Assembly: GCF_020075545.1 (NCBI RefSeq)
Contig: NZ_JAIQZK010000005.1
Coordinates: 1 to 64,000, forward strand
DNA: 64,000 nucleotides
Direction: 5' to 3'
Source: Nocardioides sp. TRM66260-LWL
Lineage (GTDB): Bacteria > Actinomycetota > Actinomycetes > Propionibacteriales > Nocardioidaceae
Shown here: piece after piece, positions 3,395 to 28,422 of the stretch
How the letters are laid out: each line of letters begins with the position of its first letter
Numbering within the stretch: the stretch's first letter is position 1
Program-made: the position numbers and the translations under genes
The notes under the pieces: generated by a model
The model's input: only the letters and a program-made list of their open reading frames with translations
Database searches by the model: none
Told to the model about the DNA's origin: nothing

Positions 3395-3873
3395 CGCAAA
3401 AGTCCGTTCCGGTTGGCGCGGGCATAGAGATCGGGTCGGATCTGGTCGGCCCGCTTGCGCAGAGGTGCGAGGCCGAGGGCGTCAGCGGCCTGCGTGGCGG
3501 TGGCCAGTCCGTGGCGCGAGTTGGCGCCGGTGACGTCGCGCATCCACATCGCGACCACGACGGTGGCGCCGATCGCGAGGACCTCCCCGATCAGGGCGAG
3601 CACCCACATCACCGCATTGCCCGGCAACCCGGCAGCGACACCATCCGTTAGGCCGGTGCCGAAGCGGCCGCGCAGAAGACCGCCGTAGGCACTCGCGAGA
3701 TGGCCGTTGGGCCATGCGAAGCCACCTGAGGTCGCCCATCCGACGAGCCCTTGGACCACTAGAGGCGTGATGAGGAAGACGAAGACGCCAGCGAGAACGA
3801 ACCCGATCGCGAACTCGCCCGCCGAGGGTGCGGTGTTGGCGAATCGGGCGCGACGGGACCGCTCCATGCTCAC
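3391..3873 (-). CDS. small integral membrane protein, likely membrane anchor of the coupling protein
   Basis: A 160-residue protein with two clear membrane segments, about residues 20-45 (GFVLAGVFVFLITPLVVQGLV) and 88-112 (VMWVLALIGEVLAIGATVVV). A short charged cytoplasmic C-terminus ends LRKRADQIRPDLYARANRNG. In canonical VirD4/TraG proteins a similar two-helix anchor is the N-terminus of the ATPase. Here it is a separate gene with 4-base overlaps on both sides, to the ATPase downstream and to a P-loop protein upstream. The anchor role is inferred from topology and gene order; no enzymatic motif is visible. Confidence 0.7.
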   Translation of the reverse strand: MSMERSRRARFANTAPSAGEFAIGFVLAGVFVFLITPLVVQGLVGWATSGGFAWPNGHLASAYGGLLRGRFGTGLTDGVAAGLPGNAVMWVLALIGEVLAIGATVVVAMWMRDVTGANSRHGLATATQAADALGLAPLRKRADQIRPDLYARANRNGLLR

Positions 3874-4457
3874 CGCGACACCGCCATCGGACTACGAGCC
3901 GGTGCCTGCCAGCGGTGACACGGCCGGTCCATCGGACCCCGCGCATCGGGTACGACCGGCACGGTGTCCAGCGGCCAGTCCAGCCGTCCCTGCCCGTCGA
4001 GAGCTGCCGTCTCCACCGCGTCGGCGTGCTCGGGTCGGATCAGGCCCAAGCAGGTGATGTCGCGCCCGAGCAGTGGCCGCTCGATCAGCCGGTTGCCTCC
4101 GTAGGAGGTGAGGATGACGCGGGCGGTTCCCAACGGCAGCAGGTTGAGCCAGTCGTCGTCCTTGAGGTCGATGTCGTCGACCACGACAAGACAGGTGCCG
4201 CGTCGGCAGGTGCCGCCGAGTGGCCGTGTGAGGTTGTCGGGGTACTCCGGGTCCTCGACCAGGTCGGACCACTCGGTAGGCCCCTGGGCAAAGATATGGG
4301 CGTGCCGCGCGGTGTCGGCCAGCCACCAACGCGTCAGGTAGCGGGCGAGGGTGGTCTTTCCGCGGCCGACGTCGCCGATCAGTAGCAGAGGCCGGTTGCT
4401 GTTCGTGTCGAACCCGGCGGGCTGGCCATCCACGGTCGTGCCGATGCGTACGTCCAT
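3870..4457 (-). CDS. small P-loop ATPase of the transfer operon
   Basis: A 195-residue protein with Walker A GDVGRGKT near residues 28-35 and a Walker B-like strand CLVVVDDID. The fold resembles a minimal FtsK/HerA- or AAA-like ATP-binding module; the exact family is uncertain. I take the ATG at 4457, because the protein then begins MDVRIGTTVDG. The in-frame extension back to 4532 would be coding sequence running through the repeated leader hairpin. No Shine-Dalgarno precedes this ATG; instead it carries the 18-base leader shared with VirB4 and the 15080-15340 gene. It overlaps the membrane-anchor gene by 4 bases, so it probably works with the coupling protein. Confidence 0.75.
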   Translation of the reverse strand: MDVRIGTTVDGQPAGFDTNSNRPLLLIGDVGRGKTTLARYLTRWWLADTARHAHIFAQGPTEWSDLVEDPEYPDNLTRPLGGTCRRGTCLVVVDDIDLKDDDWLNLLPLGTARVILTSYGGNRLIERPLLGRDITCLGLIRPEHADAVETAALDGQGRLDWPLDTVPVVPDARGPMDRPCHRWQAPARSPMAVSR

Positions 4458-4504
4458 GTCGGGACAGGCAACGCAACGGGCCGCGGATCGGACACCACTG
4501 CGGC
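4455..4504 (-). promoter_or_regulatory. repeated 5' leader element, copy A
   Basis: On the minus strand the sequence GTTGCCTGTCCCGACATG ends in the start codon at 4457. It is preceded by a short hairpin (GCCGC at 4500-4504 pairing with GCGGC at 4480-4484) whose loop carries TGTCCGATC. The same 18 bases and the same GTCCGATC loop occur before two other genes (copies B and C). The gap back to the upstream stop codon is 91 bases. There is no GGAGG-type ribosome site. This copy has the weakest stem of the three. Confidence 0.7.
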
Positions 4505-4548
4505 AACCGATTTCGCGCAGCTGGCCGGTCACGGCGGTATGGCCCGAG

Positions 4549-7305
4549 TTAGGCGGCTGCTGCGGGCATCCCGCCGAGGTCGAAGCCAGCCTTGGGAAGC
4601 GCCCAGGTCACTGATCCCGACGGTGTGTGGACGTCGGCGAACCCAACACAGCCGTAGACGCCGTTGGCCGAGCAGCCGTAGTCGTTGCCGAAGATCTTGC
4701 CGTTCCCGACGTAGATCGCGACGTGGCCGACTCCGTCGCCCCGGTCGTAGGACACCACCGCCCCGACGGGTGGGAGCGGGTCGAGGCCGGTGCCACGGGC
4801 CTGGGCGAGGCCAGCGTTGATGATGCCTTGGGCGACGTCTTGGCCGTTGCCATAGCCGCGGCCGACCCCCGGTCCGCCGTACAGGGCGTCGACGACCTTC
4901 GGGCATTGCCCGGAGTAGGTGCAGGGTGCGCCGTGGGTCCACGACAGTCCGCACAGGCCGCCTGGGGTGTGCTGCATCGCGCTGATCCGTGCCGACAGGG
5001 CGGCTGAGAGGTCGCCGGCGACGGTGATCGCCGAGGCCGCGCAACTGCCCCCGGTGTCGGCGACCGGTGTCAGCGCGCCGGTGCCGACTGCGGCGGCGAC
5101 CCCTTGGCGGGCCTGGTCGAGGTACTGGTGGTAGTCGGCGTGCTCGAAGGGGAGCCAGTCGGCGAACTTTGCCGCACCCGCTCCAGGCCGCCCTGAGTAG
5201 AGAGCGAAGGCGTAGCGGGCGTTGACCAGCGGGTCGAAGATGTCGCCCGGCTGGTTCCAGCCCGGCACCAGCCCTTTGTGGCTGGCCGCGATCTGCCACA
5301 GACCGAAGTGGGTGCCGTTAGTGGCGTTCGGGTTCCAGTTCGACTCCACGTGCGCGATTGCCACCGCGGTCACCAGGTCCTCGCCTCGGAACCCGGCCTG
5401 GTAGGCGGCCTTCGCGGCTACCTGGGCGCCGCTGCTGCTGTCTGTGGCCGCGACGTTCTGCAAGACCACGGAGCCGGCGTCGCCGTACGTGCTGGGGCAC
5501 GGAGGGCAGGTGGTCCCGGTGGCGATGTTCTCCACACCGGTAGCGCCGGTGCCGGATGTCGGACCGCCAGGTCCGGCGCCGTTCATTGCCATGCGCGTGA
5601 ACAGGGCTGGATGGTCGGAGTGGACGGCCGCCTTGCTGATCTCCCAGGTCTTCTCGACGCTCACCGGAGCGGCGTAGAAGTTGTAGATCACCCCGGAGTC
5701 CTTGGTGTACCTGAACCCGGCGGCCTGCATCTTGGCCGCGGCCGACTCGGGGCCTTCCCCGGGGTGGGAGTTCATGTCGCCGCCGAGGAAGACCGGTCCG
5801 TAGGCCGACAGCTTCGCGGTCAGCTGGACCAGGTAGTCCATGCCTTGCCCGTACTGGGTGGCGCGCGTGAACGGCTGGTCACCCCACTGGGAGTTGGGGT
5901 AGCGGAAGGGGTTGGTCATCTGGTGGGAGGAGATGACGGCGGCCACGGCACCGTCAGTGCGTTGGAAGACTCCCCAGATCGCCCAGCGGCCCCAGTTCTT
6001 GTTGGAGCCGTGGAAGATGACGTGGTCGTCTTGGACGATGCGCACGCGGCCGCCGTCGAGCATCTTCCACGTGTCGGTGCGCCACATGATGGCGTTGTCG
6101 AGCGATCGGGCTCCGCCGTCCGCGGCCTGGACGGGCGTCGGGTCGCGGTAGGCCCCGTACCCGGGGGCATCGGCTTGCATCTGCGCAATCGGTACGTCGC
6201 CGACCTCGTTGAGAGTGATGAAGTCAGGGGACGGGGCCGCGAGCGCACGTACGCCCGGGGTGAAGCCGCTGCGGAGTTTGATGTTCGCGTTGGCGATCAG
6301 GATGTTGCCGTTCACCGGGCCGCCAGGTGTGGCGTTGATGCTGGTCGGCATCACCCCGAGGTCGGTCCCAGTCCCCGCCTGCCCGGTGCTGGTGGCGTTG
6401 TCTCCTGCGCTCGGGCCGTTGGCGAGCTGTGCGCCGGTGTAGACGAACGGATGGTCGGTGTAGTCGTGGGCGTTGTCGTTGGTGGACTGGTCGACCACGG
6501 TGCCGGAGAAGGTGACCGCTGCCGATCCCATGATCCGGTCGATCTGATTGCCGTCGGTGTTTGCGCTGCTCCAGCCGCTCCCCGCGGTGGTGAGGAAGAG
6601 GTTCTTGAACCGGGCCTTGTCGTTCATGTCGCCGGTCAAGAACAGGGGCGTGGTCGGTTCACTCGCCTGCAGCTGACGCAGCGTGTTGGCCTCGGCCCGG
6701 ACCGCGTCGTCGCGCATGGCGTCGCTGCCGTTGACGACGTCTGCCGGGTTGTGGGTGTTGAGCACCCAGATCGAGCCGATGCCCTTGGTCGAGGTGAACC
6801 GCACCAGCGGGATCTGGACGGTCGGCCCGCCGTACTTGATCGTGACGTAGCGGACCTCGGCTACGGTCCACACGCCCGGCTGGTAGGCGATCGAGTTCGC
6901 GGTCGCGGGCTTGCCGTGGGCTCGACCTTTCACAATCGCCCACGCGCCGTGGGTGGCGTTCAAGAAGTCGGCGGCCTGGGGCGGCTCGAACTCCTGGAAG
7001 CCGATGATGCTGGCCCCCGAGGCACCGACCTTGGCCACCATGTTCGGCACCCGCACCCTGTACGGGCGTTCGCCAGGATGCGGGTTCGACTCGTAGTGGG
7101 AGGCGCCGCGCCAGTTCAAGGTGCCGATCCCGAACATGCCGCCGGTGCTCGTTGCCGTGGTTGCGCAGGCGGCCTGGACCGCGGCGATGTTGGCGTTGCC
7201 CATTCCGAGGAACAGCAGCATCAAGGGCGCCATTAGGAGCAGCGGCAGCCCGAGGGCGATCTTCTTCACGATGTCCGCCTCTCTCAGGCGGTTGTCTCTA
7301 TGCAT
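4549..7305 (-). CDS. exported four-domain protein: two endonuclease/exonuclease/phosphatase domains, lytic transglycosylase, CHAP-type hydrolase
   Basis: A 918-residue protein with a membrane/signal segment at about 14-45. Residues 57-292 form one EEP (DNase I-like) domain, with E105 (FQEFE), GDMND around 225-229 and TDHP around 283-286. Residues 335-572 form a second, with E367 (LNEVGD), HQ at 461, GGDMNSH at 508-514 and SDHP at 563-566. Residues 630-735 resemble a soluble lytic transglycosylase (AIAHVESNWNPNA, Glu654, then FGLWQI). Residues 795-905 resemble a CHAP/NlpC-type peptidase (Cys801, then GHVAIYVGNGKI with His861). The start ATG has GGAGA six bases upstream. Wall-opening domains are expected in conjugation operons of Gram-positive bacteria; fusion to paired nuclease-fold domains is unusual. 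The nuclease-fold domains could act on DNA or phospho-substrates; this cannot be decided here. Confidence 0.85.
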   Translation of the reverse strand: MHRDNRLREADIVKKIALGLPLLLMAPLMLLFLGMGNANIAAVQAACATTATSTGGMFGIGTLNWRGASHYESNPHPGERPYRVRVPNMVAKVGASGASIIGFQEFEPPQAADFLNATHGAWAIVKGRAHGKPATANSIAYQPGVWTVAEVRYVTIKYGGPTVQIPLVRFTSTKGIGSIWVLNTHNPADVVNGSDAMRDDAVRAEANTLRQLQASEPTTPLFLTGDMNDKARFKNLFLTTAGSGWSSANTDGNQIDRIMGSAAVTFSGTVVDQSTNDNAHDYTDHPFVYTGAQLANGPSAGDNATSTGQAGTGTDLGVMPTSINATPGGPVNGNILIANANIKLRSGFTPGVRALAAPSPDFITLNEVGDVPIAQMQADAPGYGAYRDPTPVQAADGGARSLDNAIMWRTDTWKMLDGGRVRIVQDDHVIFHGSNKNWGRWAIWGVFQRTDGAVAAVISSHQMTNPFRYPNSQWGDQPFTRATQYGQGMDYLVQLTAKLSAYGPVFLGGDMNSHPGEGPESAAAKMQAAGFRYTKDSGVIYNFYAAPVSVEKTWEISKAAVHSDHPALFTRMAMNGAGPGGPTSGTGATGVENIATGTTCPPCPSTYGDAGSVVLQNVAATDSSSGAQVAAKAAYQAGFRGEDLVTAVAIAHVESNWNPNATNGTHFGLWQIAASHKGLVPGWNQPGDIFDPLVNARYAFALYSGRPGAGAAKFADWLPFEHADYHQYLDQARQGVAAAVGTGALTPVADTGGSCAASAITVAGDLSAALSARISAMQHTPGGLCGLSWTHGAPCTYSGQCPKVVDALYGGPGVGRGYGNGQDVAQGIINAGLAQARGTGLDPLPPVGAVVSYDRGDGVGHVAIYVGNGKIFGNDYGCSANGVYGCVGFADVHTPSGSVTWALPKAGFDLGGMPAAAA

Positions 7306-7438
7306 CGAAGTTCTCCGCTGCCGCTATCGCGCCAGTGAACGCATCCCGCCAGCATGAACGGCCCGCACCTCGTTGAGCACCTCGAAGGGCCTCACACCGC
7401 ATCGCTGACCTCCCGGCCAGCCGTGCACAGCGTTTGGC

Positions 7439-8221
7439 TCAGCGCAAGGACTGATACACGTACGCCACCGCCAACGCGGCGGCGGTAGCGCCGAGCATCA
7501 GCGCCAACACCCTCTCCGGTAGCCGCCGGTGCCAGCGAGCACCCAGGTAGCCGCCGATCAGCCCACCCAGCCCACAGGCGATCCCGAGCCCCCAGTCCGG
7601 TGCCACCGATCCGTGCGTGCGCAGAGCGATGAGGCCGAACGCGGCCGCGCCCACGATCGAGGTGACGAAGGTCGAGGCCAGAGCCGCCGGAGCAACCTTC
7701 GCGAGCGGGAGCCCCCGCGCTACCAGGATCGGCGCCAGGATCGACCCGCCACCAATCCCGTAGACGCCGCCGAGCACACCCACCACCAAACCGAGTCCGA
7801 CGATCAGCCGCACAGACGGATCTGCCGTTCGTGGCCTCGCCGATGGACGCAGGGTGCGCCAGATCAGCCACACCCCCAACGGCAACAAGACCGCCGCGGC
7901 GACCAGCCGGAACGGCCGCGCGTCCGGGATGAGGTAGATCCGCACGAAGGCGCCAGCGATCACGCCCGGCACCGTCCCGGCGAGCATGTACCGGGTCAAC
8001 TCTCCTGGCCGTTGCCCTTGCGTTCGGTAGCGCAGCAGCGCACCAGGGCCCGAGACGACGTTGTAGAGCAGGTTCGTCGGGGTCACCGCAGGGTTGGGAA
8101 CCTTCAACAGGTCCATCTGCACCGGCAGCAGGAACACCGCGCCCGAGACACCCACGGGTGCCGTGATCGTCGCGATCAGCAACCCCGCGATCAGACCCAA
8201 CGCCAGATGTCCCCAGTCCAC
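7439..8221 (-). CDS. TauE/SafE family sulfite/organosulfonate exporter-like permease
   Basis: A 260-residue membrane protein with about eight hydrophobic segments and two internal family repeats. The first begins GLIAGLLIATITAPVGVSGAVF and the second is GVLGGVYGIGGGSILAPILVA, both typical of TauE/SafE (PF01925). Family members export sulfite, sulfoacetate or other small anions across the cytoplasmic membrane. It is a stand-alone gene among conjugation genes with 100-200 base gaps on each side, so it is probably cargo. A perfect inverted repeat 92 bases upstream may be its operator. The substrate cannot be read from sequence. Confidence 0.85.
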   Translation of the reverse strand: MDWGHLALGLIAGLLIATITAPVGVSGAVFLLPVQMDLLKVPNPAVTPTNLLYNVVSGPGALLRYRTQGQRPGELTRYMLAGTVPGVIAGAFVRIYLIPDARPFRLVAAAVLLPLGVWLIWRTLRPSARPRTADPSVRLIVGLGLVVGVLGGVYGIGGGSILAPILVARGLPLAKVAPAALASTFVTSIVGAAAFGLIALRTHGSVAPDWGLGIACGLGGLIGGYLGARWHRRLPERVLALMLGATAAALAVAYVYQSLR

Positions 8222-8312
8222 GCCCTGATCCTCGCAGCGAGGAGCGCCCTGCCCTTGCAGGTCTCACCAGCCCGAACGGCGCGCGGTCGTCCCGGGTCGG
8301 ACGGAGTAGTAG

Positions 8313-8329
8313 TAGGTTCGCTGAACCTA
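8313..8329. promoter_or_regulatory. perfect 7-bp inverted repeat upstream of the TauE-like gene
   Basis: The arms TAGGTTC and GAACCTA are separated by GCT. It lies in the 180-base gap between the VirB4 stop and the TauE-like start, on the promoter side of the latter. The size and symmetry suit a dimeric repressor. No regulator gene is adjacent. Confidence 0.4.
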
Positions 8330-8401
8330 AGCATCCGCCTACGCCCTGGGCGCTGTGCATGGTCAAGTTCGCTGAGGAATCGTCAATATTCATGCGAACT
8401 T

Positions 8402-9916
8402 CTAGAGAGCCGGGTCGATCGCGTCGTTGGTGTACGTGAGTCGCCGCTCAAGAGGGGTCAACAAAGTTTGAATTTTGTACTTTTGATCGCCCACCATCCA
8501 CAGGGCCCGGCCCTTTTCCTGCATGGCCCAGTTGGTGATGACGTTCTGCTGCATCTCGGAGAGACCCATCAGCCGACCGAGCTCGTCGGCGACCGACTCG
8601 TCTTGGCCCATGAGGATGCGGACGTCGGAGAGGTTGAGCAGGTCCTTGGCGATCTGGGCAGCCTGGCTGCCCTGGTCGCCAGCCGAGAGCGGGTCCGACG
8701 GCTTGTGATAGGTCACGATCTGGATGTCGCCCTCGGTGCGGGAGAGCCGCAGGTTGGCGTCGAGGGCCTCGACCGCCTCGAGCGAGAGGCGGGTCTGCAG
8801 CCAGGCCTCATCTCGCAGCACGATCCGTCGGTCGCCAGCTGCGGCGGCCTCGCGGATCCCCTGCCCCCACGAGTTCAGACACATCAGCGCAATCCCGACT
8901 GCGACCTTGTTGCCGGTGGCGTGCAGGGAGCGCAGCGACAGCGTCTGGATCGGTGCACGCCAGTCCGGCTGGAAGGTCGACTCGGAGTCGAACATGCCCT
9001 GCAGCGACCCCTTGCACAGAGCCCCGAGCGCATCGCGCAGCGGCCGTGTGCCGTCGTAGAACGCCTGAGGGTTCTCGTAGCGGTTGTTGTTGACCAGCTC
9101 CTTGCTCGGTGAGTGCAGTGCGGCCCACACCTGTGGGATCGTGACCGGCTTGAGGCGCGACGCCCCTGCCGACCAGCCCGTGAGGTCCTGGAGGACCTCG
9201 TTAATCACGGTCTCCTCGGTCGGGGTGAAGCTCACGCCTTGGGAGCCGACCAATCCGCGGATCAGCATCAGCCAGCGGTTGAAGATGATCGTCGCTCGCT
9301 TCTCCTGCTCCTCGGCGGTCTGCTTCTCCCAGTCCGCGCCGAGGGCGCCGAGGTCGAGCGGGTTGATCCGGCCGGGTAGCCCGGGTCCGATCCTGAAGGG
9401 GTCAACGCCGAGGAACTTCGAGATGTCCTCGTACTCGTCCTTCACATCACCCAGGACCAGCGAGCGATAGCCGTAGCGGATCATGCGCAGCATGAACGCC
9501 TTCACTGTCGCGGACTTGCCACGGCCGGGCTTGCCGAAGATGAAGATGTTCGGGTTGGTCACCGGGATGGTGTCGTCGAGGACCCAACCCATCGGGTCGC
9601 AGTAGAACTTGCCGCCCGAGAGAACGTCGTAGCCCATCTCCGCACCCCACGGCGGGAGCCCGTCGCCGGAGATCAGCGGCCACAACACGGGGGTCTCTTC
9701 CGAGGTCATCTGGTAGCCGGCCAGCGGCGGCAGTGTCGGTGCCCACCCGTGCCCCGGGCGTCGTACGCCGTGGGCCTTGATCGAGTTCGGGAACAGCTTC
9801 TCCGCGGGCGGCGCCGGTGGCGGTGCGGCCTTGCGGGGCATCGTGGTCCCGAAGTCGGCCAGCAGGTCATCGATGGTGCGCGAGTGCGGCCGCGACTTCG
9901 TAGCGCTCTTGGTCAT
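8402..9916 (-). CDS. VirB4-like conjugal transfer ATPase
   Basis: A 504-residue ATPase of the VirB4/TraC/TrbE group, the energy-providing subunit at the base of type IV secretion channels. Walker A is at residues 128-135 (GKPGRGKS), Walker B reads RRIVLRDEAW, and the downstream helix and RecA-like core follow (DIQIVTYHKPSDPL, VRILMGQDES). The N-terminal region before the Walker A is shorter than in proteobacterial VirB4, which is usual for the actinobacterial type paired with SCO6880 proteins. The start codon carries the repeated leader (copy B) and no Shine-Dalgarno. The SCO6880-family gene lies 90 bases upstream. Confidence 0.92.
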   Translation of the reverse strand: MTKSATKSRPHSRTIDDLLADFGTTMPRKAAPPPAPPAEKLFPNSIKAHGVRRPGHGWAPTLPPLAGYQMTSEETPVLWPLISGDGLPPWGAEMGYDVLSGGKFYCDPMGWVLDDTIPVTNPNIFIFGKPGRGKSATVKAFMLRMIRYGYRSLVLGDVKDEYEDISKFLGVDPFRIGPGLPGRINPLDLGALGADWEKQTAEEQEKRATIIFNRWLMLIRGLVGSQGVSFTPTEETVINEVLQDLTGWSAGASRLKPVTIPQVWAALHSPSKELVNNNRYENPQAFYDGTRPLRDALGALCKGSLQGMFDSESTFQPDWRAPIQTLSLRSLHATGNKVAVGIALMCLNSWGQGIREAAAAGDRRIVLRDEAWLQTRLSLEAVEALDANLRLSRTEGDIQIVTYHKPSDPLSAGDQGSQAAQIAKDLLNLSDVRILMGQDESVADELGRLMGLSEMQQNVITNWAMQEKGRALWMVGDQKYKIQTLLTPLERRLTYTNDAIDPAL

Positions 9917-9969
9917 GTCGGGACAGGCAACAGCCCGGCTCCCAGATCGGACATCTGGTGGCCGGGCTG
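9914..9969 (-). promoter_or_regulatory. repeated 5' leader element, copy B
   Basis: This is the same GTTGCCTGTCCCGACATG as copies A and C, ending in the VirB4 start codon. It is preceded by a strong two-part hairpin: outer arms CAGCCCGGC (9961-9969) and GCCGGGCTG (9931-9939), inner arms CCAGA and TCTGG, and apical loop TGTCCGA. The gap to the upstream stop codon is 90 bases. Stem sequences differ from copy C but still pair, which is what a conserved RNA structure would show. Confidence 0.75.
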
Positions 9970-10006
9970 TTTCAGGCCGGTGCCGTATTGAGGCGCTGGT
10001 CTTGGG

Positions 10007-11542
10007 TCACCGCTTCTTCGGCAGGCCTGCCCCCAGCGGGATCGTGGCCACGGCGAACGCGGCATCGTGGGCCCCGTCGAGCGGGAGTGGGGTGAAGCCG
10101 CTGATGCGGATCGAGGCGTCCAGGCGGCGGCCGAAGTCCTGCACATTCCAGCCAGCCGGGGCGGTGATCGAGACCGCGGAGGCGACCTTGACCAGTGACC
10201 GGCCGCGCTCGAGCTTCTCGTCGCGCTCGTGGAGCTTGCCGACCGACTGGCGGTCCTTGGCCCGCTCCACACGGCCGACCTTCTCCCGCAGCGTGCCGGC
10301 CATGACCGCTGACATCTGCGCTGTGCCAGTGGACCGATCCGCGGCCTGCTGGGAGACCGGCCGGTAGAACACGGTCAGGGCCCGTCGCTCACCGGGCTGG
10401 GACGGCACCAGAACCCGCGCCAGCGCACCCATGCGGGCGCCCTTGCGGGGCAGCAGGATCGTCGAGGAGACCGACTCCCACTCCCCGTGCCGGTAGGACC
10501 GCATCGCGGTGGTGGCGTTGGTCGGCCCCGCCGCCGCGACCGGTACGCCGGCCGCGATCGAGGGGTCGTCGCGGTGATGGATCTCCGCGTCGGCCAACGC
10601 CGGCAGGTCCCCGGGTTCGAAGCCGGTACGGATCGCCATCGCGAGCTCGGAGGTGTCGAGCCAGTTCACGCGGCTGCAGCCGATCGAGCCGGTCAGGCGG
10701 GCCTCGACCTCGGCGAGGACCGAGTAGAGGATGCGGGCACGGCCGATCACTCCACGACCAGCGCGCTTGGCGTCCTTGTTGATGACGTCCTCGCGGACCA
10801 CGACGGTCACAAACGCCTCGTGGCGCACGGCCGCGCCGGCGGTCATCGCCTCCAGCTGCGCGTTGACGCTCGCCGACACAGGCGGTTCGTCGGGCCGGGC
10901 GTTGGTGCGCACCCACTCGGCGCGCTCGGTGCCGTCGTCGGGGATGGTGCGTACCTGCACCACGACCAAGTCGATCTGGTTGCCCGCGGTCGCGGCCTCC
11001 ATCATCTCGGTCAGCCCGGCGCCCATGCGGAACCGGTCGACCTCATCGCTCATCCCGATCCCGGGGTGGATGACCCGGGCGGTCGCGGCCCAGGTGCGGG
11101 CGGCGTGGTTCTGGATGATCGCCGGGCGGGCGGTCTGCCCGCTCATCGGCGGGCCGTCGTGGATCTGGATCCCGGCGAGGATGCCGGGCAGGTCGGCCTC
11201 CCCTGCCTCGCCGTCGTCGTCAGGGTCGTCGGCGTTGCCGAGGTCGAGGTCACCGGCGGCGGCCTTGGATTGGAACCGCGACCAGCCGAACGCGATTCCG
11301 GCCATGTGCCGGAACACGACCCCGATCCACTGGAAGGCTGAGTGGCCACGGATGGGCAGGCAGACCAGCAGCCCGACCACACCCCATGCGGGCAGCAGAA
11401 CCAGCAACGGCAGCCACTTCTGCATGGCGATCGCCATCCAGGTGGGGAACCCGGCAGCGAGCACCAGGACGAACTGGGGTCCGGTCAGCCCGAAGAGCCA
11501 TGCCTGCCGGTCACGGGTTGCCGAAGCTCCGTAGACGCTCAT
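10007..11542 (-). CDS. SCO6880-family type IV secretion component
   Basis: A 511-residue protein with a hydrophobic N-terminus (two membrane segments, about residues 18-60, including FVLVLAAGFPTWMAIAM and LLVLLPAWGVVGLLVCL) and a long cytoplasmic domain. It matches the actinobacterial SCO6880 family, which always travels with a VirB4 ATPase and resembles a PrgI-like membrane part joined to the VirB4 N-terminal domain. It probably sits between channel and ATPase. The downstream gene is VirB4, behind the leader element. The start overlaps the VirB6-like gene by 4 bases (ATGA). Confidence 0.85.
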   Translation of the reverse strand: MSVYGASATRDRQAWLFGLTGPQFVLVLAAGFPTWMAIAMQKWLPLLVLLPAWGVVGLLVCLPIRGHSAFQWIGVVFRHMAGIAFGWSRFQSKAAAGDLDLGNADDPDDDGEAGEADLPGILAGIQIHDGPPMSGQTARPAIIQNHAARTWAATARVIHPGIGMSDEVDRFRMGAGLTEMMEAATAGNQIDLVVVQVRTIPDDGTERAEWVRTNARPDEPPVSASVNAQLEAMTAGAAVRHEAFVTVVVREDVINKDAKRAGRGVIGRARILYSVLAEVEARLTGSIGCSRVNWLDTSELAMAIRTGFEPGDLPALADAEIHHRDDPSIAAGVPVAAAGPTNATTAMRSYRHGEWESVSSTILLPRKGARMGALARVLVPSQPGERRALTVFYRPVSQQAADRSTGTAQMSAVMAGTLREKVGRVERAKDRQSVGKLHERDEKLERGRSLVKVASAVSITAPAGWNVQDFGRRLDASIRISGFTPLPLDGAHDAAFAVATIPLGAGLPKKR

Positions 11543-12933
11543 GCGAGGAACACCGCATCTTCAGGACCGACCGCCTCGGCCGAGGAGACCTTCGGGGGTG
11601 GGTTGTCGTTGGCGACGCCGTCGTGGTTGGTGTCGTTGAGGGGCTGCATGCGCTGAGCCTTTCCGTGCTTGTCCTTCGCCTGTCGGGGGCTGTGACTGGT
11701 GTCGTAGTAGCCCTGGTTGCCGATGCCGGCCTGGCCCAGGACGTCGATGCCCATCGAGGCACCGGCCGCGGCGACCTTGCCGGTCTTGTCCATGGCGCCG
11801 CCGACGGCGGCACCGACCTTTCCGCCGTACTTCTTCAAACCCGAGGACTGGAACCGGCCTGCTGTCTCGGCCTCGGCTCCGTTCTCGGAGCTGGTCCGAC
11901 CGTCCGCCCCGGTCTCGGTGGCGGCCTCCGAACCGGAGGATCCGCTGGTGGCGCCCTTGCCCTTCAGCAACCCTGAGACGCCGCCGTTGGCGTTCATCGT
12001 GGACCGGAAGGAGGCGCCCGAGGCGGTGCCGGGGTCGACGAACGCGAGGAGCCGGAACAGCACCATCGGCATGAAGCAGGCCACCAGCATGATGATCGAC
12101 CCGACCACGGACATGCCGATGTTGGAGGAGGTGTCAGAGACGTGCAGCAGCTGCTCGGCGGAGTTCTGTGACTCGGCGCCGTCGGGCATCCCGGCCCAGG
12201 CGAACTGGGTACCCATGCCCACGACGAGCGCCAGTAGCGGCTCCATCAGCACGCAGGCCAGGAACCAGCGGATGCTCTTCCACATCCACGACTTGGTGCC
12301 CTCAGAGAGCGCACCGGCCGCGGTCAGCGGCATGGTCGCGGTCAGGATCAGCAGGGCCGCGGAACGGACCATCATGATCACCATATGCCCGAAGGCAGCC
12401 GGGATCAGGATGAACAGGGCACAGATGCCCAGGGTGGCGGCTTGGGTCGTTCCCGAAACTGTGTCGACGAACCCGTCGCCGGCCGCGTAGCCGGAGAACG
12501 AGTCGACGCCCAGCAGACTGTTCAACAGTCCTTTGGTCAGGCCCGAGGCGGCTGCGATGAGACCGGCGCAGACGCCGATCCAGCAGCACAGAACGACCCC
12601 GTACTGCACCAGCCCTGCGGCGAGGGTGCCGAACCCGCGGCCATCGCCCCGCAGTACCGCCAGGCCAATCTGCCCGAACGCCACGATGAGCGCGATGGCC
12701 AGCGCGAGCCACAGGGTGACCGAGTAGAGCTTGGACAGGCCCGGGTCGGCAACGTTGGGAGTGAAGCTGTCGATGAGGCTGAACGCGGTCTTCAGCAGCC
12801 ACATGGCGCCCGACCAGATGGCCATCATCATCGAGGTGAACCCGTCGGCCAGTGTCTCCTTGGCCTTATTCCCCAACCAGTGGAGCGGGTTGAGGTCGAT
12901 CATCGGGACAATGTTTGCGACCAGAGACGTCAT
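11539..12933 (-). CDS. VirB6/TrbL-like polytopic membrane protein
   Basis: A 464-residue protein with about six to seven membrane segments in the first 300 residues (for example LWLALAIALIVAFGQIGLAVL, YGVVLCCWIGVCAGLIAAA, SIIMLVACFMPMVLFRLLAFV). A hydrophilic Gly/Ser/Thr-rich tail of about 150 residues follows. This is the layout of VirB6/TrbL channel proteins in Gram-positive systems. I choose the ATG at 12933 (MTSLVANIVPM), because it gives the same 4-base ATGA overlap with the upstream gene seen across this operon. The ATG at 12993 would overlap by 64 bases and add an unconvincing Arg-rich extension. Confidence 0.8.
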   Translation of the reverse strand: MTSLVANIVPMIDLNPLHWLGNKAKETLADGFTSMMMAIWSGAMWLLKTAFSLIDSFTPNVADPGLSKLYSVTLWLALAIALIVAFGQIGLAVLRGDGRGFGTLAAGLVQYGVVLCCWIGVCAGLIAAASGLTKGLLNSLLGVDSFSGYAAGDGFVDTVSGTTQAATLGICALFILIPAAFGHMVIMMVRSAALLILTATMPLTAAGALSEGTKSWMWKSIRWFLACVLMEPLLALVVGMGTQFAWAGMPDGAESQNSAEQLLHVSDTSSNIGMSVVGSIIMLVACFMPMVLFRLLAFVDPGTASGASFRSTMNANGGVSGLLKGKGATSGSSGSEAATETGADGRTSSENGAEAETAGRFQSSGLKKYGGKVGAAVGGAMDKTGKVAAAGASMGIDVLGQAGIGNQGYYDTSHSPRQAKDKHGKAQRMQPLNDTNHDGVANDNPPPKVSSAEAVGPEDAVFLA

Positions 12934-13787
12934 GACTGCGGCACCTCCAGCCACTGGTAGCCGGCGTCGAAGGAAGCCTGGGAACCGGGCCACAGCGAGG
13001 GAGCCGCAGCTGGCTCATCGCCGGTTCCGATCACCCACCGGCCTCCAGCAGAGTCGCTGGAGTCGGCGGAGTTCTGCCAGACCATGCGCTGGCAGTCAGC
13101 GGCGGCGACCTGCTGGGACGGGGAGCCCGGCAGGGTGACGGTGATGATGAAGTCCACGCAGGGCACGACGAAGTCGGAGCCCACCGTGCCCTTGACGAAC
13201 CCCATCTTCGGTTCGACGCCGATCGTGATGCCGTTCTGTGCGTCAGCCGACAGTCCTGCTGAACCCAACAGGGTGGCCACGCCCTTGACCCCAGACCAGG
13301 ACTCCGGCGTGGGTCCGCCGGGTGCGGCCCAGTTGGTGATGACGTCTTGGGCGATCTTCACCGAGGCCGAGCTCAGGGCGGTGGAGTCGATCGCGGCCAT
13401 CTGCGCCAGGGCACCCTGCGGGGTGTGTGGGTAGCCGGTCGCGACACCGACCTCACCGACCTTCATCGGGGGCGGGATCTCCAGGGTGCCGGTCTTGCCG
13501 GTGGACAGGTCGCCACCGGGCTGGGCTGCCTCGACCGGGGCGGCCGGGAGGGGCTTGTCGGCCAGCTGGTCTTGTGCAGACGTCGTCGTGCCGGACCCGG
13601 TGGCGGCGACGGCCTCGTCGGGCTTGGAGCCGGTGAGCATGTTGATCACCGACCAGGCACCGCCGACGACCAGTGCGAGTACGACGACCGCCGCCGCCCC
13701 GAGCAGGATCTGGAGCCGTAGCCGGGTCCATTCCGTGCTCGGGTCGACCAGCTTGGTCTGGTACGCGTTTCGGGTCCGGGTGAACAT
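12930..13787 (-). CDS. single-pass membrane protein of the transfer apparatus (VirB8-like topology)
   Basis: A 285-residue protein with a short cytoplasmic N-terminus, one membrane helix at about residues 28-50 (ILLGAAAVVVLALVVGGAWSVI), a Thr/Ser/Ala linker and an external domain of about 190 residues. The external domain includes GYPHTPQGALAQMAAIDS, which recurs in actinobacterial conjugation operons, and a Cys pair (PCVDF, ADCQR). The layout is like VirB8/TcpC assembly factors, but I cannot see enough to assign that fold. It lies between the VirB6-like and VirB2-like genes, one base from the latter. Confidence 0.7.
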   Translation of the reverse strand: MFTRTRNAYQTKLVDPSTEWTRLRLQILLGAAAVVVLALVVGGAWSVINMLTGSKPDEAVAATGSGTTTSAQDQLADKPLPAAPVEAAQPGGDLSTGKTGTLEIPPPMKVGEVGVATGYPHTPQGALAQMAAIDSTALSSASVKIAQDVITNWAAPGGPTPESWSGVKGVATLLGSAGLSADAQNGITIGVEPKMGFVKGTVGSDFVVPCVDFIITVTLPGSPSQQVAAADCQRMVWQNSADSSDSAGGRWVIGTGDEPAAAPSLWPGSQASFDAGYQWLEVPQS

Positions 13788-13788
13788 C

Positions 13789-14124
13789 TCAGCAGCCGTT
13801 CCCGACGATGCCGTTGAGGATCGCGTAGATGCAGACGAACGCGATGGCGCCGATCACGGTCCAGAACAGGCCTGAGGCGCCGAGCTGCGCCGCGCGTCCC
13901 ATCTGTCCGAACTTGCCGACGATCAGGGCACCGGAGGAGGCGAAGCCCGCGCCGATGATGATGGCGATGACGCCGTACTTGACCCAGCCGAGGATCTGGG
14001 CGACGTACGGGGCAACGCCCGTGGGCGCCTGGGCGCAGACGTTGCTGACGCCCTCGGCCTTGATGGTGGTCCCCGCGTTGGTCACCAGCGTGGTGGCGAT
14101 CTCGGAGATGGCGTGAACGATCAT
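13789..14124 (-). CDS. small two-helix membrane protein, VirB2/TrbC pilin-like
   Basis: A 111-residue protein with two long hydrophobic segments (about 43-65 and 82-105) separated by a short basic loop (GKFGQMGRAAQ), and a Cys near each end (NVCAQAP and the terminal Cys). Two helices with a short positive loop is the architecture of VirB2/TrbC-type conjugative pilins and of small channel proteins in such operons. A ribosome site (GGAGAG) lies just upstream of the ATG. Its place before the VirB8- and VirB6-like genes fits a structural T4SS subunit. Confidence 0.65.
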   Translation of the reverse strand: MIVHAISEIATTLVTNAGTTIKAEGVSNVCAQAPTGVAPYVAQILGWVKYGVIAIIIGAGFASSGALIVGKFGQMGRAAQLGASGLFWTVIGAIAFVCIYAILNGIVGNGC

Positions 14125-14144
14125 GTGTCTCTCCTGCTTTCCTT

Positions 14145-15083
14145 TCAGGTCCGGTTCGCCGTCAGCGGTCCGGTGATGGTGGTGATCCGCTCCAGCAGGT
14201 GCTGGGAGGGGTTCGTGAGCTGCTTGGGCAGCGGGTCCGGCCCCAGACCCGGGAGGGCCTTAGCCGACAGGAGCGGCGCGAACAGCACCGCCTCCTGCTC
14301 GTGGGCGGTGCGCAGCAGACGGCCGGCGCCGGCGAACTCGCGGTCGCTCCAACGGCCTGCGCCGATGACCACGACGACCACGCGTTCGCTGTTGAGCTGA
14401 TCGGTGAGCTCGACCAGTGACGCCTCGGCCTGGGACAGCGCCAGCTCGTAGGGCCGGGTCACCAGGACCTCGACGTCGGCGCGAGCCGAGGCCACCCACG
14501 CACCCTGCGGGGCGGCCGCCAGCTCGCGCGGGGTCCAGCCGGCATCGAGCACGGTCAGGTCGACACCGTCGACAGGGCGAGGGGCGGGCACGTCGGCCGG
14601 AACCCACACAGGCTCCTGGACGCGGTCGATCAGGACGTTCGCGCCGCGGCGGCCGCGCCGCCATCCCTCGGCCGCGCCGAGCTCGGTCACGGTCGCACCC
14701 AGCAGCCCCGACCATGCCGGAGCAGCCGCATCCAGGATCCGCGCGCGCACGCCGGAGCAATCGGCTGCATCCGCCAACGCGAGGGTGACGGTGGAGGCGC
14801 CCGCGCCTGCGTTGGCCGCACGAACTCGCACCACCGGCCCGATCCCGCCCAGGAGGTCACCCTCCCCCGGGGCTACCCGGGCGTCGCCGCCGACCCGATC
14901 GCCGGTCTCCCTGGGGGCCGGGCCGCCCGTGGTGAGGTTGCGGTCGACCTCATCGCACTCGACCGACAGGGCCGCGGGCGCCGCCAGCGCAGTCGTGGGG
15001 TGCGCAAAACGGCCAGCCGCCAGTGCGGCCGCAGCCGCCTGGAGCTCGCGGGTGGAGAACCGAGCGGTCGTGCCGGTGGTCAT
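14145..15083 (-). CDS. degenerate MinD/ParA-like protein
   Basis: A 312-residue soluble protein. At about residues 90-112 is VRVRAANAGAGASTVTLALADAA, which follows the pattern of a MinD/ParA P-loop strand-loop-helix, but the Walker A lysine is replaced by Ala (GAGAST instead of GKT). Further on are NVLIDRV, VDLTVLDAGW and VVVVIGAGRWSDREF, spaced like the later strands of that fold. It may bind nucleotide weakly or not at all and act as a scaffold or localisation factor. It overlaps the 86-residue gene upstream (ATGA) and ends 20 bases before the pilin-like gene. Confidence 0.6.
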   Translation of the reverse strand: MTTGTTARFSTRELQAAAAALAAGRFAHPTTALAAPAALSVECDEVDRNLTTGGPAPRETGDRVGGDARVAPGEGDLLGGIGPVVRVRAANAGAGASTVTLALADAADCSGVRARILDAAAPAWSGLLGATVTELGAAEGWRRGRRGANVLIDRVQEPVWVPADVPAPRPVDGVDLTVLDAGWTPRELAAAPQGAWVASARADVEVLVTRPYELALSQAEASLVELTDQLNSERVVVVVIGAGRWSDREFAGAGRLLRTAHEQEAVLFAPLLSAKALPGLGPDPLPKQLTNPSQHLLERITTITGPLTANRT

Positions 15084-15340
15084 CGCGCGGCCTCGATCCG
15101 GGCAGCCCGCAGACGCATGGCCTCGCGCAGCACCGAGGCGGGGGTGTTGCGGATGACCTCGCGAGCGTCTGCGGCCTGCTCGGCATCGGCACGCAGCCGT
15201 GCGATCGCGTCCTCGATGCCCGACAGAGCGTGGTCCACGTTGTGCGTGGCCACGACCTCCAGCAGCTGCGCGACGACCTCGGGGGTCGGCCCTGCAAGAT
15301 CACCGGAGACACTGACCACGGCGTGTGCGTTCTCGCTCAT
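15080..15340 (-). CDS. small helical hypothetical protein of the transfer operon
   Basis: An 86-residue, mostly alpha-helical, acidic protein with no membrane segment (for example VVAQLLEVVATHNVDHALSGIEDAI). I do not recognise a family. It is the first gene after leader copy C and overlaps the MinD-like gene by 4 bases, so the leader probably controls both, and perhaps the T4SS genes downstream. Confidence 0.65.
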   Translation of the reverse strand: MSENAHAVVSVSGDLAGPTPEVVAQLLEVVATHNVDHALSGIEDAIARLRADAEQAADAREVIRNTPASVLREAMRLRAARIEAAR

Positions 15341-15386
15341 GTCGGGACAGGCAACGGCCCCTGGTCCGGATCGGACGCGGGGGCCG
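15338..15386 (-). promoter_or_regulatory. repeated 5' leader element, copy C
   Basis: GTTGCCTGTCCCGACATG ends in the start codon at 15340. It is preceded by a hairpin with arms CGGCCCC (15380-15386) and GGGGCCG (15355-15361). The loop contains GTCCGATC and can form a second small stem (GTCCG with CGGAC). The gap to the upstream stop is 90 bases. The stem differs in sequence from copy B but is in the same place. Confidence 0.75.
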
Positions 15387-15430
15387 CAACTTCTTCCAGA
15401 TTCATCCTGGTCCAGATCAAGTCGGTCCCT

Positions 15431-16336
15431 TCAGGCAATCGCCTCGAGGTACTGCGGCGCCGCGTCGCGCAGCCGAGCAGTGGTCTGGTCGCGTCGACGG
15501 CGGATCTGACGCAGGGTCACGCCGTGACGTTCACCGACGATCCGCTGGGCCTCCTCGCGGGCCCGTTTCGTTTCGCCCCGGGCGAGGAGCTCGTGCTCGG
15601 CGGCCATCAGCTCGACCAGCAGATCGATCTCCCCGGGCGCGATCACGCCGACCTCACGTGCCCACACCAACAGGTCGACCAGGTCCTCAACCGCATCCTC
15701 GACAACCGGCACCGCGACGGTCAGGTCGCAGTCGTCCACTCCGCGCTCGAGGCCGGTGCCCAGGACCTCGCTGCCCGCCTCCCCCACCAGCCACGCGTCT
15801 AGCGACGTGGTCTCGACCCGGCAGAGCAGCCCGGCCGCCGGACGGCACAGCCGCTGCCGGGCCCGGTCCAACAGGTAGCGACCCGCCCGGTTCCCCAACT
15901 GCGGCTCGGCGGCCTTGACCTCTTCCCACACCATGGCGTGCACGTCGCCGACCTCGCACTGCAAGTCACTGAGTTGGCCCGCGACCCGGTTCACTCCGTC
16001 GGCCAGGACCACCAGCACAGCCAGGGCGGCGTCGTCGTCATCGCCACCGCGACGTGATCCGAGCGCGACCAGTCCCGCCAGCATCTCGTAGCACTCATCG
16101 TCGCGGCGCCGCCATCCCGCGCATGCCTCCTGCAAGTCGGCGAAGCCGGCCAGGCGTAGCTCGACTTGCTGCCATTGCTCCCACTTGCCCGAGCGGTCAA
16201 GGCTGGCCGCCACGGCCGTGGCGAGAGCTCCCTGCCCCCGTCGGCGTTCCCGCTGGACGCGAGTGGCGGGGGTGGCCGGGGCGGTGGGCTCGGCGGTGGG
16301 TGCGGTGGTCTGGATGGTGAGGGTGCTGGCCGACAT
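15431..16336 (-). CDS. hypothetical protein with a C-terminal HTH-like helix pair
   Basis: A 301-residue soluble, helical protein with a Thr/Pro/Ala-rich N-terminus. The C-terminal 45 residues (IVGERHGVTLRQIRRRRDQTTARLRDAA) look like a helix-turn-helix of the sigma-4/phage-regulator kind. The family is not recognised. The start at 16336 is well supported: GGAGG stands six bases before the ATG (MSASTL); an earlier in-frame ATG at 16417 has no such site and would run through the repeats. It is the first gene downstream of the iteron-like array, so it could bind that array, but this is only positional inference. Confidence 0.65.
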   Translation of the reverse strand: MSASTLTIQTTAPTAEPTAPATPATRVQRERRRGQGALATAVAASLDRSGKWEQWQQVELRLAGFADLQEACAGWRRRDDECYEMLAGLVALGSRRGGDDDDAALAVLVVLADGVNRVAGQLSDLQCEVGDVHAMVWEEVKAAEPQLGNRAGRYLLDRARQRLCRPAAGLLCRVETTSLDAWLVGEAGSEVLGTGLERGVDDCDLTVAVPVVEDAVEDLVDLLVWAREVGVIAPGEIDLLVELMAAEHELLARGETKRAREEAQRIVGERHGVTLRQIRRRRDQTTARLRDAAPQYLEAIA

Positions 16337-16388
16337 GGCGGTCCTCCGAGCAGGCAGGCGATCAGGACGCGCCCATGTCAGAACTGAC

Positions 16389-16506
16389 CGCTCACCACCC
16401 CGCTCACCAAGATCCACACCACCCGCCCAGGACTGCCTGATGAGCGCTCACCAAACCGCTCACCAAACGCAAAACCGCAGGTCAGAGACGGTGCCGCCGC
16501 TCACCA
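16389..16506. repeat. iteron-like array: five copies of CGCTCACCA
   Basis: Exact copies of the 9-mer CGCTCACCA lie at 16389, 16401, 16445, 16457 and 16498, all in one orientation. The first four form two pairs, each with a 12-base period, and the pairs are exactly 56 bases apart. The copies are embedded in 12-base units of the form CCGCTCACCAnn. The array fills most of a 298-base gene-free gap between the LysM/BTAD gene and the HTH-like protein gene. Regular short direct repeats of this kind mark plasmid origins, oriT accessory sites or cooperative operators. Confidence 0.75.
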
Positions 16507-16512
16507 GCCCGG

Positions 16513-16539
16513 CCCGAAAAAAGTTCAAGAAAGTTCGGG
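16513..16539. repeat. A-rich inverted repeat next to the iteron array
   Basis: Arms CCCGAA and TTCGGG enclose an A-rich stretch containing the tandem words AAGTTC AAG AAAGTTC. The low GC stands out against the surrounding sequence and lies seven bases from the last iteron. It could be an easily melted segment of an origin, or part of a promoter for the minus-strand gene downstream. Confidence 0.45.
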
Positions 16540-16568
16540 TCCACCGCTTGCGCGGCCTGGAAATGGGC

Positions 16569-16606
16569 CGTGGCCCCGCCTCACCACCCGGTGAAGCGGG
16601 GCCACG
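16569..16606 (-). terminator. hairpin terminator after the LysM/BTAD gene
   Basis: Arms CGTGGCCCCGC and GCGGGGCCACG (11 bp, perfect) are separated by 16 bases that can themselves pair (TCACC with GGTGA). It lies 29 bases beyond the stop codon of the gene ending at 16635. There is no T tract, which is common for actinobacterial terminators. Confidence 0.55.
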
Positions 16607-26363: not shown

Positions 26364-27346
26364 TGCGTCACCACCGTCTGTCGCTGATACACCGTGATCG
26401 AAGTCGTATTGCCTGCCGCGGCGAGCACGGCCGGGAGGTCACCGCCGGTCAGGCCGCCGCAGTTGCCGGTGCAGGTCCACGCCAGCGTGTAGTTGATCCG
26501 CACCGACACGGTCCAGGTGTCGCCCTCTGGGTTCTTCATCTCGTCGTAGGCGTAGGAGCAGTTCGTCGGCGCGTCCTCAGGCATCCCGGTCACCCACTCA
26601 CGCCCGGGCCCGACACACGAGACCGTGTCACCGTTGCCCATGTCCCACTGCGTGTACGACGGCGTCGCCGTCAAGGTGACCGTGGCGCCGTTCTGTGACT
26701 GGCTCGCAGTGACCGCATGCCACTGCCCGGATGGCACCCACAACCAGTTCTTGTACGAGATGTACGTGTGATATGTCGGCGCCGGAGCGATCTTCGCGTT
26801 CCCCAACTCGTAGGGCAGCGACGCCCTCAGCGTCGTGGCCACGGCGACGGGGTCGACCGGCTGAGTGCCGTTCGCGACCCACCACACCTGACCGGTACAG
26901 GCGTTGCTTCCTGCCGCGCACGTGCTGCAGGTCCAGAACTGGCCGTCTGCCGGCGTGATGTTGTTGGCCGCCCAGACAGGGTCGTCAGCTGCGGGCTGGG
27001 GATTCTGGGGTTCGGCGTAGCACCAATGTGGATTGGCCCACCAGGACAAGCCGTTCTTGGAGCAGGGCACGACCGATCCGTCTTGTGCATGGCATTCGGC
27101 CGGCGCGCTTCCGCCGCCACCAGGACTAGGACTTGATCCGGGGGACTGCCCAGGAATGGTGATCGCGATGCAAGCACCGAGATCGCCGTTCCACCCTGTT
27201 CCTGGCGGACAGTCTCCGGGCCCGTCCGCCCAGGCAGGCCCGCTCACTCCTCCGCCGGAGAGGATGGCGGCGGCCGCGACAACGGTGACAACGACGCCAG
27301 CCAGGCCCGCGCTTATCGAACCTCTCAAGGTGCTGTCGGCGCGCAT
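26360..27346 (-). CDS. secreted Cys-rich protein of the transfer/pilus operon
   Basis: A 328-residue exported protein with signal peptide (about residues 10-40, ending SGPAWADGPGDC), a Pro/Gly/Ser linker, and an external domain rich in Trp, Tyr and Cys (twelve Cys, for example FWTCSTCAAGSNACTG and WTCTGNCGG). I do not recognise a family. Its position at the head of the Tad-like operon and its aromatic, disulfide-rich surface suggest a surface or adhesin-like component. It overlaps the SAF gene by 4 bases and the upstream lipoprotein gene by 22. Confidence 0.7.
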   Translation of the reverse strand: MRADSTLRGSISAGLAGVVVTVVAAAAILSGGGVSGPAWADGPGDCPPGTGWNGDLGACIAITIPGQSPGSSPSPGGGGSAPAECHAQDGSVVPCSKNGLSWWANPHWCYAEPQNPQPAADDPVWAANNITPADGQFWTCSTCAAGSNACTGQVWWVANGTQPVDPVAVATTLRASLPYELGNAKIAPAPTYHTYISYKNWLWVPSGQWHAVTASQSQNGATVTLTATPSYTQWDMGNGDTVSCVGPGREWVTGMPEDAPTNCSYAYDEMKNPEGDTWTVSVRINYTLAWTCTGNCGGLTGGDLPAVLAAAGNTTSITVYQRQTVVTH

Positions 27347-27921: not shown

Positions 27922-28422
27922 CAGCACCAAACCTCCCGAGTGAGCGAGTGCTGCCTTACCCGAAGCGTAAAGCCGATCTCGTGAATGTGCCGTGGGCCAA
28001 GACCGACGCGTGACCGTTGACGTTGCGCGTAGGTGCATGTCGGCTCCTCTCCTTCGGCTAGATCCCCTCTCAAACGTGATGGCAACCGTCACTCCGCCGG
28101 ATCGGACATCCGATCGGGAAATTCCTCTAAGTCCCTCTCTTGCGTCGCTCCCGCCATGCGTCAGGCTGGCGGGAACGACCCAAGGGTCCGACGTGAACGC
28201 GGCAGCTTCCGGCGGCGATGTCGACGTCGGACGGGAACGGCACTGGCGCGGCGTGGGGACAGAAGCGAGCGCGGCGGAGTCGCCGGTGTTACTGCGTTCC
28301 ACCTGACCGCGGAGGGATGCAACCGGCTCGGTGGCGATAGCAACAGCGTCCTCGTCGAGCAGCCGCGCGGCTCCCCGATGAGTACGTCGCTGGATCGTCG
28401 CCACGCTGTGTCCTTCCGAGAC

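Follow-up and report, generated by a model that had tools for sequence, protein, structure and literature searches.

The DNA analysed here, henceforth referred to as the window, is a 64,000-nucleotide stretch of Nocardioides sp. TRM66260-LWL (contig NZ_JAIQZK010000005.1, positions 1 to 64,000). It carries transfer genes syntenic with those of pNOCA01 (Nocardioides sp. JS614) and pTC1 (Paenarthrobacter aurescens TC1), and short repeated sites that precede several of these genes are the subject of this report. An 18-base word, GTTGCCTGTCCCGACATG, was found by a search of the window in three exact copies, all on the minus strand (4472–4455, 9931–9914 and 15355–15338), with no further copy in the whole 3.9-Mb genome. 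When the window was dinucleotide-shuffled 100 times, no shuffle gave three matches, even with up to three mismatches permitted. A first-pass annotation had interpreted the three copies, ending at the ATG codons at 4457, 9916 and 15340, as parts of a structured RNA leader that takes the place of a ribosome-binding site. The copies themselves were borne out by the window and genome searches, and the intercistronic gaps of 91, 90 and 90 bases to the upstream stop codons are correct by open reading frame (ORF) coordinates. Reading of the sequence also agreed that no Shine-Dalgarno (SD)-like word lies immediately 5' of the three ATGs. The list of three was incomplete. Scoring of the motif class with a weight matrix along the 316,543-base contig gave five members of 28–38 bits, at 4493(−), 9952(−), 15376(−), 28107(−) and 28995(+), all within the first 29 kb of the window. 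Outside these five sites the contig contains nothing at or above 14 bits, and a single Markov-shuffled contig of equal length contained no site at or above 10 bits. The five copies, and the gene proposed to encode the protein that reads them, are:

4462–4493, minus strand: copy A, with the ATG of the P-loop ATPase gene 3870–4457 at +36 (33.3 bits).
9921–9952, minus strand: copy B, with the ATG of the VirB4/TraG-like ATPase gene 8402–9916 at +36 (38.3 bits).
15345–15376, minus strand: copy C, with the ATG of the 86-residue gene 15080–15340 at +36 (34.3 bits).
28076–28107, minus strand: copy D, followed by a ribosome-binding-site-like word and the ATG of gene 27325–28038 at +69 (30.1 bits).
28995–29026, plus strand: copy E, with the GTG of the 60-residue ORF 29031–29213 at +36 (28.4 bits).
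15431–16336, minus strand: predicted sigma factor gene (301 residues), previously unannotated, recognised by predicted structure and proposed to encode the motif reader.

At copies A, B and C, the A of the ATG lies exactly 36 nt after the first base of GTCCGATC. Gene 27325–28038, behind copy D, is followed on the same strand by genes of type II secretion system (T2SS)/Tad type, and the ORF behind copy E is followed by a tyrosine integrase gene (29200–30369; Phage_integrase match, E 7e-26).

In pNOCA01 and pTC1, GTCCGATC, a 13-bp spacer and GTTGC are kept at all three positions A, B and C with the ATG at +36 (one pTC1 site has it at +37), and the letters after GTTGC vary between the copies (GTTGCTTCTCC, GTTGCCTTTCC and GTTGCCTTACC). 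pNOCA01 contains 14 sites of at least 16 bits, one of which has GTG/ATG at +36/+39 of the annotated MobF relaxase gene. Because RNAalifold found no common base pair in ten copies, the search model built from ten copies (R1) was made sequence-only, and it was used on 215 Nocardioides genomes solely as a source of candidates. At an E value of 1 it matched in all 215, with strong multiple copies in few genomes only. From stretches around the candidates and from the two plasmids, 118 copies were gathered that, at spacing 21, matched at least 16 of the 19 core positions and had an exact [ACGT]TCCGA[TC]; removal of copies at least 70% alike outside the core left 75 non-redundant copies. Some early rows (GTCCGACG and GCTGC rows) resemble chance matches inside genes, and most of them were removed by the later filter.

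The consensus of the 75 non-redundant copies is T-GTCCGATC-N13-GTTGCYTNTCC, with weaker conserved positions upstream at −19, −18, −12 and −10. The heights in the core logo are inflated because selection demanded core matches; the test of the 13-bp spacing is independent of that selection. In 1,196,440 bases (nine contigs) the word GTCCGATC occurs 119 times, 57 times with GTTGCYT within 63 bases, and the gap is exactly 13 in all 57 pairs. The reversed first word, used as a control on the same bases, formed no pair with GTTGCYT. In 29 of the 75 copies position +36 holds an ATG (background 1.6% per offset), and 64 of 75 have a purine at +34, which is suggestive of a transcription start. All 27 copies lacking ATG or GTG at +35 to +37 have an SD-like word and a start codon within 160 nt downstream, compared to 25% after shuffling, so the motif does not replace the ribosome-binding site as had been proposed.

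Two conserved words, rigidly spaced, standing before genes and on their strand, are the arrangement of a sigma-dependent promoter. The words are 21 bp apart, start to start, and if transcription begins at +36 or slightly upstream, as predicted, they come to lie at about −36 and −15; in sigma-dependent promoters, transcription starts about 6–10 nt after the −10 box. From this arrangement it appears very probable indeed that the motif is a promoter, giving leaderless or near-leaderless mRNAs where the gene begins at the predicted start. T-GTCCGATC would then act as the −35-like element, the 13-bp stretch as spacer and GTTGCYTNTCC as the −10-like element with discriminator, and the transcript would begin no more than about 3 nt from the position 36 nt downstream. 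A start codon at that position would yield a (near-)leaderless mRNA, and otherwise a normal ribosome-binding site would follow.

Searches of the viral contig and genome contig collections with patterns identical to the copies in the window gave no matches, and relaxed patterns found the family in the genome contig collection and in one viral contig. An exact 18-base pattern was found in 56 stretches among 84,980 genomes, 49 of them in Nocardioides and one in a metagenome-assembled genome (MAG) of Propionibacteriales; the six remaining stretches are similar in number to the approximately seven chance matches expected by base-count arithmetic. Viral contig IMGVR_UViG_3300005915_003602 (L188) carries the sole exact motif in the viral collection. 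The motif was not seen upstream of VirB4 at 24 loci, three of them from the nearer elements of genomes G155, G265 and G275, and the VirB4-like genes at these loci mostly overlap or abut the preceding gene.

The gene proposed to encode the reader lies between a LysM-protein gene and copy C, and each of the eight element groups that were compared with pNOCA01 has relatives of its product. Its AlphaFold model (mean pLDDT, the predicted local distance difference test score, 81) shows two helical parts modelled with confidence and, between them, a low-confidence linker of about 42 residues, with extra N-terminal helices at residues 23–77. The best 50 of 185 Foldseek matches (E ≤10) are all sigma factor or RNA polymerase entries. 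VIA-align placed residues 79–168 on region 2 of SigC (Z 8.7, 2.9 Å, 87 residues) and residues 210–298 on region 4 of SigD (Z 7.6, 3.3 Å, 69 residues), and the 50 VIA-align matches listed are sigma or polymerase entries with Z 6.8–8.8, values below about 13 being ordinary at times for helical bundles. The product is thus predicted, from modelled structure, to be a two-domain sigma factor. No match to it was found in phage records, and plasmid records gave matches in JS614 and TC1 only, a set from which near relatives of the window's genome are possibly omitted.

The motif and close relatives of this protein occur together. Among 209 Nocardioides genomes, an exact 32-base pattern was present in 26 (backward control, 0 of 209), and 37 have a protein that matches the sigma-like one at E 0.001, at least 50% identical in 14 of them. 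Thirteen of these 14 have at least two exact copies that do not precede an excisionase-like gene, as does only one (G326) of the remaining 195; the fourteenth genome, G319, has four sites of 25–35 bits. The motif also fades as the protein diverges. G155, with a relative of 42–46% identity, has GTCCGACC-N13-CCCGCCTCTCC with ATG at +36 before gene A, and stretches of G265, G275, G306 and G106, which have more distant relatives, contain no site of at least 11 bits. Distant relatives found by profile lie about 6.7 kb from a VirB4-like gene at six more distant type IV secretion system (T4SS) loci in five genomes, and each lineage may therefore have its own sigma factor and its own code. In G381 (Nocardioides sp. 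B-3, L104:17182–17984), the sigma-like gene matches in two pieces and may be broken or contain a sequencing error; motif copies are still present there at the A, B and C positions.

Several observations, besides the low Z values, weigh against a sigma factor as the reader. The best Foldseek match, 8hkc (sigma32), has an E value of 2.8e-3, and none reaches 0.001. The protein has no significant Pfam, NCBIfam or PDB-sequence match, and for this reason it is named sigma-like here and is not filed as a member of the sigma-70 (extracytoplasmic function (ECF)-like) family. Its profile scored E 0.094 and a probability of 0.6% against one ordinary sigma factor, and E 0.022 and 2.2%, in the region-4 part, against ten. 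Because these profile tests were weak or negative, the identity as a sigma factor is a prediction. The co-occurrence has a Fisher P of 1e-18 in a test that ignores element relatedness and uses copies classed by the analyst from the downstream sequence. G326 has at least two non-excisionase copies and only a distant relative of the protein; one of the two stands before a gene related to a motif-controlled backbone gene, the other before a gene of unknown kind. Finally, the conserved backbone encodes other DNA-binding proteins, namely an ArsR-like winged helix (28600–28980) and a DnaA-C helix-turn-helix (HTH) protein (429–1172). Taking both sides together, recognition of the motif by the sigma-like protein is judged likely, with perhaps one chance in four against it, and the overall reading, an element-private promoter class with an element-encoded sigma reader that drives a transfer regulon, is assigned a probability of about 0.72.

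G326 (Nocardioides immobilis; L124, L125 and L239–L243) has at least eight copies of the motif spread over seven contigs, several of them before differing small HTH_17-type genes; several elements that bear the motif, with no closely related sigma-like gene, may be present in this genome.

Nine sites were folded against shuffles, and an arm-swap test for stems was applied to the 75 copies. Two hairpins stand out in the window:

9929–9971, minus strand: hairpin overlapping copy B, 35 nt past the upstream stop codon (z −6.1).
15354–15387, minus strand: hairpin overlapping copy C, 43 nt past the stop codon of the sigma-like gene (z −3.7).

A hairpin had been claimed before each copy. Those at B and C fold far beyond shuffles, as does the copy C orthologue in JS614 (z = −7.5); A is at chance level (z 0.26, with 112 of 200 shuffles folding as well), and the folds of D and E do not surpass those of shuffles (z 0.21 and −0.41). 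A stem score of at least 6 was reached by 24 of 75 copies (32%) compared to 21% with arms swapped between copies, and a score of at least 9 by 11 of 75 (about 3% expected), nine of the 11 at B or C positions. The claim that stems differ in sequence and keep their pairing holds for B and C between related elements, where the arms of the orthologous hairpins differ and still pair. Further copies are abundant and B and C covary, the two properties whose absence the first-pass annotation had named as speaking against it, and its proposal of shared control of the transfer machine is supported. Structured RNA as the common feature is not supported: secondary structure is not conserved across the family as in a structured leader or riboswitch, the stems being mostly at B and C, and the invariant part consists of two words at a fixed 13-bp gap. 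The part shared by the copies is a promoter-like DNA motif rather than an RNA leader. We think that the B and C hairpins terminate the transcription unit that lies upstream of them or shield its 3' end.

Control of translation or attenuation by a structured mRNA leader, a hairpin with loop GTCCGATC sensed by a protein, a small RNA or a metabolite, would account for the strong B and C hairpins, for pairing kept by different stems in orthologues and for the constant distance to the ATG at A, B and C. It is nevertheless judged improbable, since A, D, E and most other copies lack a stem, RNAalifold gives no common pair, the window has no Rfam match, copies far from a start codon are followed by an ordinary ribosome-binding-site-like word, and the invariant words are spaced by helical turns (21 bp). 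A common structured leader was dropped as a candidate after RNAalifold, the arm-swap test and the folds had placed strong hairpins at B and C and few elsewhere. If instead the sites served DNA transactions (relaxase, integrase, partition or single-stranded DNA hairpins) and not gene control, their repetition, their restriction to elements, their partly inverted-repeat character and the position of some near relaxase or integrase genes would be expected; the ATG exactly at +36 in 29 of 75 copies, and the ribosome-binding-site-like word with a start codon to which all 27 copies without ATG or GTG at +35 to +37 point, make this extremely improbable.

Two further alternatives keep the motif as a control site and change its reader. 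An element-encoded activator, such as the ArsR-like winged-helix or DnaA-C HTH protein, could bind the motif and act with the host's ordinary sigma factor at a promoter that overlaps it. The winged helix is present in all eight element groups compared and the DnaA-C protein in seven of eight, and helper-sensed activators are a known solution in IncC/SGI1 according to excerpts of PMC4605294. Dimeric activators of such kinds are expected to have dyad-symmetric sites. The motif has no dyad symmetry, its conserved words fill both the −35 and the −10 positions so that no ordinary −10 hexamer is left, and a sigma-like protein with matching distribution is available; such an activator is accordingly considered unlikely, though it retains some weight. 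A host chromosomal sigma factor exploited by the elements is very unlikely. Sigma factors are numerous in Nocardioides genomes (67 Sigma70_r4_2 matches at E 1e-5 in G000 and G348 combined), but 183 of 209 genomes have no exact copy, so no chromosomal regulon is visible, and the motif set is also present in pTC1, whose host belongs to another order (Micrococcales). The host factor was rejected as reader for want of this chromosomal regulon.

In the preferred reading, the sigma-like protein (15431–16336) would join the host core RNA polymerase and read the motif, and the promoter class would drive the transfer regulon of conjugative elements in Nocardioides and of pTC1 in Paenarthrobacter. This regulon would comprise T4SS ATPases, a Tad-type pilus operon, the relaxase and other backbone genes, and in the window also the integrase. 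The sigma-like gene has a different repeat array upstream:

16337–16596, minus strand: six GGTGAG words, a candidate operator array upstream of the sigma-like gene.

No motif copy was found upstream of the sigma-like gene in any of 18 homologous regions. Four to seven GGTGAG words are present in 14 of the 18; two of the other four (L107 and L238) have GGTGGG words, one has two GGTGAG words and one is too short to judge. The words look like an operator array whose sequence has changed in concert, and the array is perhaps the switch above the transfer regulon. Since the sigma-like gene lacks the motif and carries this different array, it is probably switched by another regulator.

Motif copies were also found outside the large elements. 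At 20 of 24 Nocardioides loci of this kind, chosen by the analyst, an excisionase-like gene lies 78–84 nt downstream of the first base of the motif. A TrwC/MobF relaxase match lies upstream on the same strand at 18 of these 20, and the query integrase matches at seven of 20, the source locus included. The placement, at the xis-like gene of an element that itself has a relaxase, is that of SGI1, and its role as a regulator site is inferred. In the remaining four of the 24, G185 has no strict motif, two G303 copies stand before other small genes, and the G341 copy precedes a relative of the pNOCA01 gene that adjoins its relaxase. The G303 copies (L266:4422–4803 and L267:3862–4244) are followed by a second type of excisionase-like gene, one of which was scanned and matched HTH_17; this different gene type suggests repeated uptake of the promoter. 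At seven further loci outside Nocardioides taken from the 18-base-pattern matches, none of the three genes sought was found; the Propionibacteriales MAG stretch among them looks like a true copy. Among twelve genomes that have loci of this type or scattered copies, three lack a VirB4-like gene at E 1e-10 and none has a sigma-like relative of at least 50% identity. A more distant relative (E ≤1e-10) is present in seven of the twelve, and other helpers are therefore possible. Contig C4 of the window's own genome (L079:12209–12530) carries a motif copy before an excisionase-like gene, which places the sigma-like gene and a possible mobilizable element together in one genome.

Small integrative mobilizable elements would thus carry the same promoter before an excisionase-like gene, and arrival or activation of a helper would consequently trigger excision. 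Eavesdropping on a helper, as by SGI1 on AcaCD (PMC4605294), would fit these findings, and the odds that the smaller elements respond to the sigma-like protein are put at about even. The wider proposal, a dedicated and hitherto unrecognised conjugation sigma factor inside the T4SS locus, with a private code for a family of actinobacterial conjugative elements that several mobilizable families have likewise evolved at their excisionase genes, so that they excise only with an active helper, is tentative and falls slightly short of even odds.

A separate observation concerns the end of the element. Within 29200–31324 of the window, the 3' end of a gene of the enoyl-CoA hydratase family comes after the integrase gene; the element therefore probably ends there, integrated in the chromosome of this genome.

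Plasmid-borne sigma factors (SigN) and helper-sensed xis promoters (SGI1) are already known, and the comparisons that follow draw on excerpts of the cited reports. In the IncA/C AcaCD regulon, an element-encoded regulator activates conjugation genes, and SGI1 has an AcaCD site at its xis promoter (PMC4605294, PMC5389848); AcaCD is an FlhDC-family activator acting with host sigma factors (PMC4605294). As proposed, the present system shares with AcaCD/SGI1 a single element-encoded regulator for conjugation genes and a mobilizable element with a site at the excisionase gene. It differs in that the regulator is a predicted sigma factor with its own promoter code, in Actinomycetota, with a putative response to a helper. 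SigN (ZpdN) of the Bacillus subtilis plasmid pBS32 is comparable in being a plasmid-encoded sigma factor whose regulon lies on the same plasmid (PMC6751061), whereas the targets here are transfer genes and the sigma-like gene has no upstream motif copy. As in ECF sigma factors, a sigma2 and sigma4 fold is predicted and the putative promoter is bipartite with a −35 box beginning TGTC, the ECF41 promoter being TGTCACA / CGTC (PMC3426412). Unlike ECF factors, the protein escapes the sigma models of Pfam and NCBIfam and has the long linker and N-terminal helices described above. Compared with the ECF41 promoter, the −35 word of the motif, TGTCCGATC, is longer, and YTNTCC is conserved behind the −10-like word. 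No earlier account was found, in the open-licence literature, of an unrecognised sigma-like factor, encoded by an element, with a private and often leaderless promoter code common to conjugative and mobilizable elements.

If the proposed reading is true, one element-encoded sigma factor and a rigid code would explain the joint switching-on of pilus, T4SS, relaxase and integrase genes, and the regulon of large actinobacterial conjugative elements would become readable directly from sequence. The family includes pNOCA01 and pTC1, both of which carry catabolic genes. Eavesdropping on helpers by mobilizable elements would become testable in non-pathogenic soil bacteria, and genetic tools would gain, in the sigma-like protein and its motif, a candidate orthogonal sigma/promoter pair.

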